A stretch of 64,000 bases of DNA, taken from contig JAKBAD010000007.1 of the NCBI GenBank assembly GCA_021809435.1, positions 62,001-126,000 of the forward strand, written 5' to 3'. The first letter of the stretch is position 1, and each line of letters begins with the position of its first letter. The position numbers were made by a program, and so were the translations under genes. The stretch is from Pseudomonadota bacterium. Lineage in GTDB: Bacteria > Pseudomonadota > Alphaproteobacteria > Acetobacterales > Acetobacteraceae. Of this stretch, positions 10,299 to 14,749 are shown one piece after another. Under the pieces are notes generated by a model. That model was not told the DNA's origin. It did no database searches and saw only the letters and a list, made by a program, of their open reading frames with translations.

Positions 10299-10504
10299 GG
10301 AAACAGCCTTGACGTTTTTGCGACGAATGAATGGGCCCCGACTGTTGCGCGGATTTGCCCTGTTTCGCAACAGATTTTTAAGGTATTCGCATGATTTTAA
10401 TGAATTTATCTCAAGTCCTCGTGCCATGATCCAGCCGTCTCGCGGGCGCGATTTCGCCGCCTTCCCGCGCGATCACCGCCGTGAGATCTGAAAGGAATGA
10501 CCAG

Positions 10505-11395
10505 ATGAGACCCCTCACACGCCTGAGCTCCCTCGCCCTGGTGGCCGGGCTCGCCTTGGCCGGTGCGCCGGCCCTGGCGCAAAACTGGCAAAATGGCGGC
10601 AATGATCACCCGTGGCAGACTCAGGGAGACGGCGATCACCATCAGCAGCAAGGCGGCCAGCCCCCGCAACGTCCGGGCGGCCCGGGCGGTGGCGACCATC
10701 CATGGCCCGGCCCTGGCGGCGGCCAGCCCCCGCAACGTCCGGGCGGTCCTGGCGGTGGCGACCATCCATGGCCCGGCCCCGGCGGCGGTCAGCCCCCGCA
10801 ACGTCCGGGCGGTCCGGGCGGTGGTGACCATCCATGGCCCGGCCCCGGCGGCGGCCAGCCCCCGCAATGGCAAGGCCGCCCGGGCGGCGGCGACCATCCG
10901 TGGCCCGGCCCAGGCGGCGGCCAGCGTATGCCGCCGCAATGGCAAGGCCGCCCGGGCGGCGGCGATCAGCCGTGGCCCGGCCCAGGCGGCGGCCAGCGTA
11001 TGCCGCCGCAATGGCAAGGATCCCCCGGCGGCGATCGCCATTGGCAAGGCGGCCCACCCGACTGGCGCGACCATCCGCACGGCGATTGGTATCGTGACCA
11101 TGGCGGCATGCTGCCCCCCATCGCGCCGCCGCGGCCCTGGGGCGGCGGCGAGCCTTATCATGACTGGCACCATCATGGCTGGTGGGACGCCTATCATCGC
11201 TGGCACTGGTTCTTCGGCTGGGGGCCGGGCTTTGGCTATTTCGGCCCGCCGCCCGTGTGGTACCCCGACGACGACGAGGATTATTACCCCGAGCCCCCCG
11301 GTTATTATTACGGCCAGCCCACCCCGCCGCCCGTGATGGTCATGCCCGTGCCCTCCATCATCATCACCCCAGGCGGCATCTCCGTCACGCCATAA
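10505..11395 (+). CDS. Secreted Gly/Pro/His/Trp-rich tandem-repeat protein
   Basis: A 296-residue protein with a clear signal peptide (MRPLTRLSSLALVAGLALAG, cleavage near ALA-QN). After it come six tandem copies of a 22-residue unit built on QPPQRPGGPGGGDHPWPGP, the last ones diverging to QWQGRPGG. A His/Trp/Tyr/Asp-rich part (HDWHHHGWWDAYHRWHW) and an acidic DDDEDYYPEPP stretch follow. No known domain is recognised. His and Asp density would allow metal binding, but that is inference. The start at 10505 is preferred over 10481 because it places the signal peptide at the N-terminus. It stands alone between ftsB and hemF. Confidence 0.75.
   Translation: MRPLTRLSSLALVAGLALAGAPALAQNWQNGGNDHPWQTQGDGDHHQQQGGQPPQRPGGPGGGDHPWPGPGGGQPPQRPGGPGGGDHPWPGPGGGQPPQRPGGPGGGDHPWPGPGGGQPPQWQGRPGGGDHPWPGPGGGQRMPPQWQGRPGGGDQPWPGPGGGQRMPPQWQGSPGGDRHWQGGPPDWRDHPHGDWYRDHGGMLPPIAPPRPWGGGEPYHDWHHHGWWDAYHRWHWFFGWGPGFGYFGPPPVWYPDDDEDYYPEPPGYYYGQPTPPPVMVMPVPSIIITPGGISVTP
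10658..11032 (+). repeat. In-frame 66-bp tandem repeats
   Basis: Copies begin at CAG codons at 10658, 10724, 10790, 10856, 10922 and 10994. The period is exactly 66 bp for the first steps and 72 bp for the last, where Arg-Met has been inserted. The first three copies are almost identical at the DNA level, which suggests recent duplication or active length variation. The repeats lie wholly inside the secreted-protein gene. Confidence 0.9.
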
Positions 11396-12388: not shown

Positions 12389-12937
12389 ATGGCTGAAACA
12401 GCGACCACCGCAGAGGGCGCCGTTGATCGGCGTGATTTCTTGACCATCCTGGCCGGCGCCGGCGGGTTGCTGGCGTCCGCCGCCATTGCCTGGCCGTTGA
12501 TCGACGCGCTCGCCCCCCATGGCGATGCCGCCGCCGGCGAGCGCATGATCGTCACCATCTCCGACATCGCCGAGAACAGCGCCATCACCGTGTACTGGGC
12601 CGGACTGCCCATCTATGTCCGCAAACTCACCGCCCAGCAGATCAGCGCCAACCAGAACACCGTCCCCTCGACCCTGCCAGATCCCGCCACCTACGCCGCG
12701 CGCGTACAGCCGGGCTATGAGAGCTTCGTGGTCGTGGTCGGGCTCAACACCGCCACGCCTTGCATGCTGGAAGGCAACGCCGCCACCGACCCGCGCGGCC
12801 CGTTCGATGGCTGGCTCAGCCCGTGCGATGGTTCAGCCTACGACCCGCTGGGCCGTGTGCGCGCGGGCCCCGCGCGCCGCAACCTCGCCATCCCGCCCTA
12901 TAAATTCCTCAACGCCAACCAAATCCAGCTTGGCTGA
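12389..12937 (+). CDS. petA: Degenerate Rieske subunit of a bc1-type complex, lacking all [2Fe-2S] ligands
   Basis: 182 residues with a twin-arginine signal anchor (RRDFLTILAG, residues 14-23), one membrane helix and a Rieske-like soluble domain. The usual box 1, CTHLGC, reads N120-T-A122-T-P-C125; box 2, CPCHGS, reads S144-P-C146-D147-G-S. All four cluster ligands (two Cys, two His) are therefore replaced, while the two non-ligand cysteines that form the stabilising disulfide (C125, C146) remain. The fold markers YDPLGRVRAGPARRNL are kept. The frame is fully open and petB follows 10 bp later with a GGAG ribosome site. By family knowledge it cannot hold a normal Rieske cluster. Function is unknown: a structural or redox-inactive subunit, or a gene in decay. 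Confidence 0.88.
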   Translation: MAETATTAEGAVDRRDFLTILAGAGGLLASAAIAWPLIDALAPHGDAAAGERMIVTISDIAENSAITVYWAGLPIYVRKLTAQQISANQNTVPSTLPDPATYAARVQPGYESFVVVVGLNTATPCMLEGNAATDPRGPFDGWLSPCDGSAYDPLGRVRAGPARRNLAIPPYKFLNANQIQLG

Positions 12938-12947
12938 CGGAGTCCCC

Positions 12948-14051
12948 ATGACCGATCATCCCGCCTCATCCTGGGCGCTCAGCCGCATTCCGGGTCTGGG
13001 CTGTGTCTGCCCCTGCCGGTCCACCCGTGCCAAGGGCGGGTCATATCTGGGCGCGGTGCCGTTCCTCATCGCCGTCACCGCGCTGCTGGTGCTGGCCTCG
13101 GGGGTGGTGCTGCTGGCCACCTACAATGCCCGCAGCCCGGTAGCCAGCCTGCAAATCCTCAGCCATGCCGTGCCCCAGGGCTGGCTGGTGCGAGCTTATC
13201 ACGCCAGTGGCACCACGCTCCTGGCGGGGCTGGTTTATCTCGGGCTGTTTCACGGGCTGCTCACCCGCGCCTACCGCGCGCCGGGCGAATATGCCTGGAT
13301 GCTGGGGGTAAAGCTGCTGGCCGTGCTGCTGGCGGCCTCGTGGTTTGGTTATGTGCTGTCCGGTGGGGCAGGGGGCTATTGGTCCTATCAGCGCGCCATG
13401 ATGGCCGCGCTGCAATTCCACGGCGCGGCGCGCGGGCTGGCCTTGTGGGTATTGAGCGGCGGGCTGCCCAAGCTGCTGGTGCTGCATCTGCTGCTCGCCC
13501 TCTCAGCCGGACTGGCGCTGTGGGCGTGGCTGGCGGCGCGCGCCAAGGTGCGCGCCACACCGCCTCCTGGCGAAGCCGTTCCGTTCTATCCCTATTATGC
13601 CGCGCAATATCTGGTGGCGCTGTGTGCGCTGGGCTTTGTGGGCGCGCTGCTCATCGGGTTCTTGCCGCATCTGGGTATGCCCGCGCTCAACGCCGTGCCG
13701 GGCAGCGGGCTGAGCTTCGCCGCCAACCCGGGTCTGCCCTGGTATCTCGCCCCCCTCGGCGCGGCGGCGGGCAGTTTTCATGGCGCCTGGGGCGGCATTG
13801 GCGCGGTCATCGCCCTGGCGGTCACGCTCTACGCCGTCCCCTGGCTCGACCTTGCCCCCCCCGAAGCCCCGCCCAGCCGGCTGCATCAGGCGCTCACCTG
13901 GCTGCTCGGCGCGGTGGTGGTGGCGCTGGGCGTCGATGGCACCATGCCCGGCTGCCCGCTGGCGCCAGTGCTCGACCCGCTGCTCACCCTCTATGTGTTC
14001 CTGCATTTCCTGGTGCTGTTGCCGCTCGTCACCTGGGGGAGGGCCAAATGA
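12948..14051 (+). CDS. petB: Degenerate cytochrome b of a bc1-type complex, lacking heme bH ligands
   Basis: 367 residues, hydrophobic, aligning over its length with cytochrome b. Helix B keeps His85 (YHASGTT), but the second ligand position, 14 residues on, is Gly99 (VYLGLFHGL against the usual VYIHIFRGL). Helix D keeps His180 (LVLHLLLA), but the position 14 residues on is Trp194. His85 and His180 match the heme bL ligands; both heme bH ligands are gone. The PEWY motif of the quinol-oxidation site reads LPWY (263-266), and GYVLPWGQ reads GYVLSGGA. The C-terminal PWLDLAPP segment is kept. The start is ATG 12948; the frame is open further upstream but overlaps petA. The stop overlaps petC. Confidence 0.87.
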   Translation: MTDHPASSWALSRIPGLGCVCPCRSTRAKGGSYLGAVPFLIAVTALLVLASGVVLLATYNARSPVASLQILSHAVPQGWLVRAYHASGTTLLAGLVYLGLFHGLLTRAYRAPGEYAWMLGVKLLAVLLAASWFGYVLSGGAGGYWSYQRAMMAALQFHGAARGLALWVLSGGLPKLLVLHLLLALSAGLALWAWLAARAKVRATPPPGEAVPFYPYYAAQYLVALCALGFVGALLIGFLPHLGMPALNAVPGSGLSFAANPGLPWYLAPLGAAAGSFHGAWGGIGAVIALAVTLYAVPWLDLAPPEAPPSRLHQALTWLLGAVVVALGVDGTMPGCPLAPVLDPLLTLYVFLHFLVLLPLVTWGRAK

Positions 14052-14749
14052 TGCGTCCGTTCATCCTGCCTCTGTTGGCCCTGCTTGCGGGCGCTGCCCC
14101 GGCGGCGGCGCAAACCGTTCCGTCTTTCGCCTCCAGCGGCCCACTCGGACATATAGACGCCGCCGCCGCCCAGCGCGGTTTCGCGGTCTATGAAGCCTCC
14201 TGCGCCGCCTGCCATTCGCTCAGCGCCCTGCATTACCGTGACCTCGAGGGGCTAGGGCTGACCTCCGCCCAGGTCGCGGGCATCGCGTCGGGCATCAAGC
14301 TGGCCGATGGCACCGCAGCCACGCCCGACAGCCCCTTCAAACCCGCCACCCTGCCCGCCAGCGCCTTCGGCGGCGCCCTCCCGCCCGATCTCTCCAGCAT
14401 TGCCGCCCAGCGGCCGGGCGGCGCGGCTTATATTTATGCCGTGCTCACCGGCTACACCCCGGCCCCCGCTGGCATAACCCTCATGCCCAGCCATTATTAC
14501 AACAGCGCCTATCCCGGCGGCCAAATCGCCATGCCCCCCCCCTTGCACGACGGCGCCGTAACCTACGCCGATGGCACGCCCTCCACCACCGCCCAGGAAG
14601 CCGCCGATGTGGCCGAATTCCTCACCTGGGCGTCCGACCCCACTCTCACCGCGCGCCACGAAATTGGCCTCCGGGCGCTGATTTTCTTTGGGTTCCTGTT
14701 CGTGCTGGCGCTGGTGCTCAAGCGCCAGGCCTGGAGCAACCAGAGCTGA
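14048..14749 (+). CDS. petC: Cytochrome c1 of the bc1-type complex
   Basis: 233 residues: a signal peptide ending near AAAQT, one c-type heme motif CAACH (residues 52-56, followed by S), the family segment FGGALPPDLS, an axial-ligand Met162 in GGQIAMPPPL, and a C-terminal membrane anchor (about 205-226). All heme-binding features look functional, in contrast to the two upstream subunits. ATG overlaps the petB stop (ATGATG junction), and a uracil-DNA glycosylase frame begins at its own stop. It would face the periplasm and pass electrons to a soluble or membrane cytochrome c. Confidence 0.92.
   Translation: MMRPFILPLLALLAGAAPAAAQTVPSFASSGPLGHIDAAAAQRGFAVYEASCAACHSLSALHYRDLEGLGLTSAQVAGIASGIKLADGTAATPDSPFKPATLPASAFGGALPPDLSSIAAQRPGGAAYIYAVLTGYTPAPAGITLMPSHYYNSAYPGGQIAMPPPLHDGAVTYADGTPSTTAQEAADVAEFLTWASDPTLTARHEIGLRALIFFGFLFVLALVLKRQAWSNQS

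Follow-up and report, generated by a model that had tools for sequence, protein, structure and literature searches.

The petABC operon of the window

The window, by which we mean the whole 64,000-nucleotide stretch of DNA analysed here, carries a tight operon in which petA, an open frame encoding a 182-aa bc1-type Rieske subunit (ISP), comes first and is followed by the genes for cytochrome b and then cytochrome c1, the last two overlapping by four bases. The operon and the motifs of its first gene are laid out as follows:

12389..12937, + strand: petA, Rieske subunit (ISP) lacking all four [2Fe-2S] ligands (translation, alignment, TIGR01416)
12428..12442, + strand: twin-arginine motif R14-R-D-F-L (R14-R15) of the ISP (translation; PF10399 TAT-signal match)
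12746..12763, + strand: box 1, N120-T-A122-T-P-C125, with the Cys and His ligands replaced and the disulfide Cys kept
12818..12835, + strand: box 2, S144-P-C146-D147-G-S, with the Cys and His ligands replaced and the disulfide Cys kept
12948..14051, + strand: petB, degenerate cytochrome b with H85 and H180 kept, G99 and W194 for the bH pair and LPWY for PEWY
14048..14749, + strand: petC, cytochrome c1 that retains CAACH and the axial-Met motif PGGQIAMP (PF02167, 207 bits; translation)

Residue-by-residue alignment with the Paracoccus subunit 2yiu_C places N120 at the box-1 Cys position, A122 at the box-1 His, S144 at the box-2 Cys and D147 at the box-2 His, with C125 and C146 opposite the two disulfide cysteines, both of which are kept. 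Translation and alignment thus bear out what a sequence-only reading of this DNA had claimed, namely that the boxes N-T-A-T-P-C and S-P-C-D-G-S have lost all four ligands and that the disulfide cysteines, the twin-arginine signal, the motifs after box 2 (YDPLGRVRAGP) and the open frame are intact. The NCBIfam model TIGR01416 (Rieske_proteo) matched residues 13–182 at 118 bits against a cut-off of 97.4, and a Pfam profile search gave no match to the Rieske domain PF00355. Homology and disulfide cysteines are those of the TIGR01416 family; the Cys2/His2 ligand set is absent. Compared by phmmer with canonical alphaproteobacterial Rieske proteins from Paracoccus (2yiu_C, E = 7e-26) and Rhodobacter (6nin_C, E = 7e-24), the window ISP shares the N-terminal TAT/TM segment, the head, the disulfide cysteines and the GS.YD..GR.R.GP stretch but, unlike both, has no cluster ligand at all. 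Sequencing error and a recent outlier are ruled out, because the same four ligands are gone in a relative at 85% identity (locus L004) and at least three are gone in all 35 distinct sequences of the genus.

By the usual assignment of histidines to hemes, the accompanying cytochrome b retains the heme bL pair, H85/H180, and has G99 and W194 in place of the heme bH pair; PEWY has become LPWY, with loss of its Glu. The cytochrome b of a functional bc1 complex has four His for two b hemes and the Glu of PEWY, a set that is incomplete here. The heme c1 ligands of such a complex are present in the window (CAACH and PGGQIAMP). An AlphaFold model of cytochrome b reached a mean pLDDT of 54 and was left out of the analysis.

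Cluster ligands across Acidocella and its relatives

To judge by sequence, the window's genus is Acidocella. Two motifs drawn from the genus alignment, which were built on the cluster-free variant and say nothing about other ISP forms, hit 34 loci in the GTDB species genomes, 16 of them under Acidocella names and 18 from MAGs, with A. aquatica, A. aromatica, A. aminolytica and A. facilis represented; the genus is named on the strength of the aligned ISP, which at all 34 loci is identical to that of a locus from the window's genus.

Across 69 Acidocella loci, which reduce to 35 distinct ISP sequences, position 120 is N, position 122 is G or A and position 147 is D without exception, and both disulfide cysteines (C125/C146) are always present. 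Position 144 is Ser in 12 of the 35, the window included, and Cys in 23. The alignment of 34 of these sequences gives N120 and D147 as invariant, with only G/A at 122 and only C/S at 144, and the thirty-fifth (L116) agrees. Outside the genus we examined 49 ISP loci, a chosen subset of the matches with 41 from the window's family and 8 drawn from elsewhere in the class, and all 49 keep the C, H, C, H ligands. Surveyed through Acetobacteraceae as the sequence-only reading had proposed, the substitutions are genus-wide in Acidocella and were not seen among the 49 chosen loci beyond it. The search for the gene itself covered 37 genomes of the genus, the window's own among them, and found it in 34, including every one of the 23 that are at least 90% complete; the genomes without it (G005, G029 and G030) have a completeness of 77–85%, and a further genome of the genus, G199, also carries it.

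On a tree of the three subunits (ISP, cytochrome b and c1), built after masking of the ligand columns, Ser at position 144 needs six changes, five of which are forced by well-supported branches, giving at least five changes in the box-2 Cys/Ser state; outgroups have Cys at this position, and reversals are possible. The genus-wide N, G/A and D, set beside the scattered Ser at 144, indicate that three ligands were lost before the genus radiated and that the fourth changed several times later, once on the branch to the window and L004. The window lineage lies on a long branch (0.61).

Cytochrome b has changed throughout the genus as well. Whereas the bL pair is present in 34 of 35 Acidocella species, none has the full bH pair: 9 keep only the first His, 10 only the second and 16 neither, the last group counting L019, which has a gap at the bH site and looks frameshifted. 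PEWY is replaced by PPWY, YPWY, LPWY, VPWY or WPWY in all 35. The quinol-site stretch PWG is also substituted in those Acidocella sequences of the cytochrome b alignment that were examined. Outside Acidocella, cytochrome b was read at 45 loci in 43 genomes, and 44 of these loci have four histidines and PEWY; cytochrome b was not found in the fetched stretch around seven other non-Acidocella ISP loci (L107–L112 and L118). A search of 31 genomes of the genus found a single cytochrome b match in each of 29; G029 and G030 had none. One sequence, L022, is alone among the 35 in also lacking the second bL His. The cytochrome b sequences of L019 and L058 do not line up with those of relatives in the N-terminal part and in a stretch past the second His region, probably because of frameshifts, either in the gene itself or in its assembly.

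In c1, CxxCH and the axial-Met motif are readable in 38 of 39 Acidocella loci examined (five with a misplaced first pattern match were checked by eye); no c1 was found at the remaining locus, L040, which is on a short contig. By genome, c1 was matched in 27 of 28 members of the genus and not in G023; in G015 a further, partial c1 sits on a different contig. A single c1 gene is reported in two pieces in G012, G014, G018 and G021. The c1 proteins of these four (L017, L021, L016 and L020) are missing the KLADG-like stretch that follows the heme motif, and their Pfam match falls into two parts.

The one non-Acidocella exception for cytochrome b is L073 (G254:C73:8457-12500; genome G254, genus code g120), from the same family. 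Its petABC encodes a cytochrome b with H-E-H-G and PPWY, like Acidocella, but, unlike Acidocella, an ISP with all four ligands (C-P-H-R-G-C / C-P-C-H-G-A); two genomes with the same genus code, G155 and G212, gave no ISP match. Judged from its motifs, L073 looks like an earlier stage or apparent intermediate. Because its cluster ligands are intact and its cytochrome b is broken, it suggests an order of loss in which the bH and quinol sites would have gone first and the cluster later.

A cluster-free ISP in Acidocella is already known and has been in print since 2023, so the earlier suggestion of a previously undescribed subunit falls away. In that paper, Degli Esposti et al. (PMC10715153) describe a 'deranged' bc1 complex in Acidocella and Acidiphilium, with bH ligands lost, c1 intact and an apparently functional oxidase; the Acidocella ISP has lost three or four ligands with the disulfide kept, Acidiphilium is given as having no ISP, and one Acidisoma has intermediate features. 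The window agrees with that description in every point compared: genus, gene, ligand loss with a retained disulfide, loss of bH histidines and intact c1. We infer that G254 is possibly the Acidisoma taxon concerned. Added here are the genus-wide residue counts (35 species), the counted PEWY replacement, the repeated change at the fourth ligand, the conservation comparison and L073, although part of this may be in the alignment of Fig. S8 of the same paper. Among the open-licence PMC papers covered, no experiment on the Acidocella complex was found.

Respiratory context, conservation and predicted fold

The source genome (2.65 Mb, 12 contigs, rated 100% complete) encodes one cytochrome b and one c1. 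The search for a canonical petABC elsewhere in the genome, which the sequence-only reading had named as a check, found no second bc1 subunit set. Nor was a canonical ISP found: PF00355 gives two matches, in frames of 457 and 368 aa, and both were assigned by eye to oxygenase components on the strength of their C-x-H and C-x2-H motifs and reductase-like neighbours. An aa3-type oxidase operon has a readable CuA motif (CNQICGLGHDAM) and the COX1 histidine motifs, and the genome also encodes a second, bo3-like COX1 and two bd oxidase genes. NuoD is represented by one strong match and a weaker second, and cytochrome c (PF00034) by eight matches. HiPIP was rejected as an alternative electron donor, since none is encoded in this genome.

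We compared mean pairwise amino acid identity in 34 Acidocella loci (one genus) with that in 33 canonical Acetobacteraceae loci of 28 genus codes. The values were 0.62 versus 0.69 for the ISP, 0.63 versus 0.60 for c1 and 0.51 versus 0.79 for cytochrome b; with no outside clock, the time depth of the two sets differs, and only the within-operon ranking is therefore used. By that ranking, cytochrome b goes from the most conserved subunit in canonical relatives to the least conserved in Acidocella; the ISP and c1 means stay close to their canonical values. ISP frames remain open at pairwise identities down to 0.48.

The dN/dS comparison proposed in the sequence-only reading speaks partly for constraint: NG86 omega of the ISP is 0.06–0.36 in the 22 closest pairs, but the highest of these values, 0.356, belongs to the window and L004. 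Together with the long branch, this could mean relaxation in the window's lineage. Medians for Acidocella and canonical loci at dS <1.2 were 0.32 and 0.31 for the ISP, 0.28 and 0.42 for c1, and 0.46 and 0.23 for cytochrome b; at dS <0.7 they were 0.23 and 0.37, 0.17 and 0.51, and 0.25 and 0.27, all of these being coarse NG86 estimates and the c1 rates coming from partial c1 where a locus ended inside the gene. The cytochrome b contrast, present at dS <1.2, vanishes at dS <0.7 and is therefore not relied on.

In canonical bc1 complexes, the Rieske box loops form the docking face. Of eight ISP stretches compared in Acidocella, these two loops vary least (mean entropy 0.56 and 0.49 bits, against 1.08 for the head base), and no His occurs among the columns that are invariant in an alignment of 16 sequences. 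The predicted ISP head superimposes on bovine Rieske 1rie with a TM-score of 0.92 by target length and 1.8 Å, a Rieske head fold in a model whose mean pLDDT is 75 and whose residues 1–50 are mostly below 50. Conservation and predicted fold are compatible with a protein retained for its shape and for docking, and not for redox work.

A probable structural role and its alternatives

The best explanation, and in our judgement a probable one, is that the redox-dead Rieske head is kept as a structural or docking subunit of a c1-bearing scaffold. As part of this reading, the petABC complex of this Acidocella species would be unable to run the normal quinol-to-cytochrome c reaction: it has no cluster ligands, no bH pair and no PEWY Glu, though c1 keeps its heme ligands, and no second subunit set was found. 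The ISP would be exported by TAT and, held by its disulfide, would take up the Rieske head fold with no cluster in it; this head would then dock on cytochrome b/c1 and act only as a structural subunit. The b–c1 scaffold may be retained for assembling or stabilising partners, namely Complex I and/or the aa3 oxidase, and could offer the oxidase a point of electron entry through heme c1; the oxidation of quinol would fall to the bo3 and bd oxidases.

We count in favour of a structural role the genus-wide ligand pattern, the presence of the gene in all near-complete genomes, the identity contrast, the ISP omega, the low box-loop entropy and the 1rie-like head. The absence of a second bc1 set and the presence of aa3, bo3 and bd oxidases with NuoD are counted likewise, as is assembly in yeast, where, going by the title of a 1991 study by Graham and Trumpower that PMC3119413 cites, an ISP without its cluster reportedly assembles into bc1. 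Against it stand the window's long branch and top ISP omega, as signs of possible relaxation, and the reported lack of an ISP in Acidiphilium (PMC10715153), by which the head would be dispensable in a relative. The Complex I part of the structural reading is the proposal of that paper, which treats the complex as possibly structural and cites Stroh et al. 2004 on Paracoccus; the c1 entry point is added here. Of the sequence-only reading, which held that selection had kept the fold but not the cluster for a new or structural role, the lost ligands, the kept disulfide and fold motifs, the conservation and the placement in Acetobacteraceae stand, and the novelty does not; the degenerate state of the next gene, cytochrome b, had escaped it. 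A whole genus retains a central respiratory complex despite the loss of its iron–sulfur ligands and some heme ligands and, if the complex is still made, Acidocella would be a natural test of the structural role of complex III apart from electron transfer.

The head may instead have been neofunctionalised, although we consider this unlikely: N120, D147 and the rewritten quinol face of cytochrome b would form a new permanent docking interface that locks the head in place, and bc1 would have become a scaffold dedicated to presenting c1 within an oxidase supercomplex.

Slow decay, with the operon a relic headed for loss that persists by chance or because c1 alone is under weak selection, is likewise doubtful. 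Cytochrome b as the least conserved subunit, the lineage-dependent bH histidines, the recurrent Cys/Ser changes in box 2, the top ISP omega of the window's own pair and the reportedly ISP-free Acidiphilium (PMC10715153) would all suit a relic. However, an ISP gene in every near-complete genome of the genus, frames still open between highly diverged sequences and the invariance of N120 and D147 argue otherwise, and the 'early stage of decay' raised in the sequence-only reading fits poorly with that presence and invariance.

Rewired electron transfer, in which bL and c1 would still carry electrons and another donor or mediator would replace the Rieske cluster, seems to us quite improbable. The nearly universal bL pair, the c1 heme motifs intact where examined and an aa3 oxidase that persists with readable CuA and heme motifs agree with it, but no cluster is left between the quinol site and c1, the quinol site has itself lost PEWY throughout and PWG in the rows examined, and L022 has no second bL His. 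That the four substituted residues make up a site for some other metal or cofactor, leaving the head a metalloprotein, we find very hard to credit: the restricted residues at all four positions could suit such a site, but the box-2 Cys/Ser state shifts repeatedly, Gly/Ala at 122 has no side-chain donor, no invariant column holds a His, and docking by the box loops explains their conservation without a metal.

Elsewhere in the window, a proline/glycine-rich frame lies at 10481–11395, with about five tandem 66-base repeats at 10652–11033.
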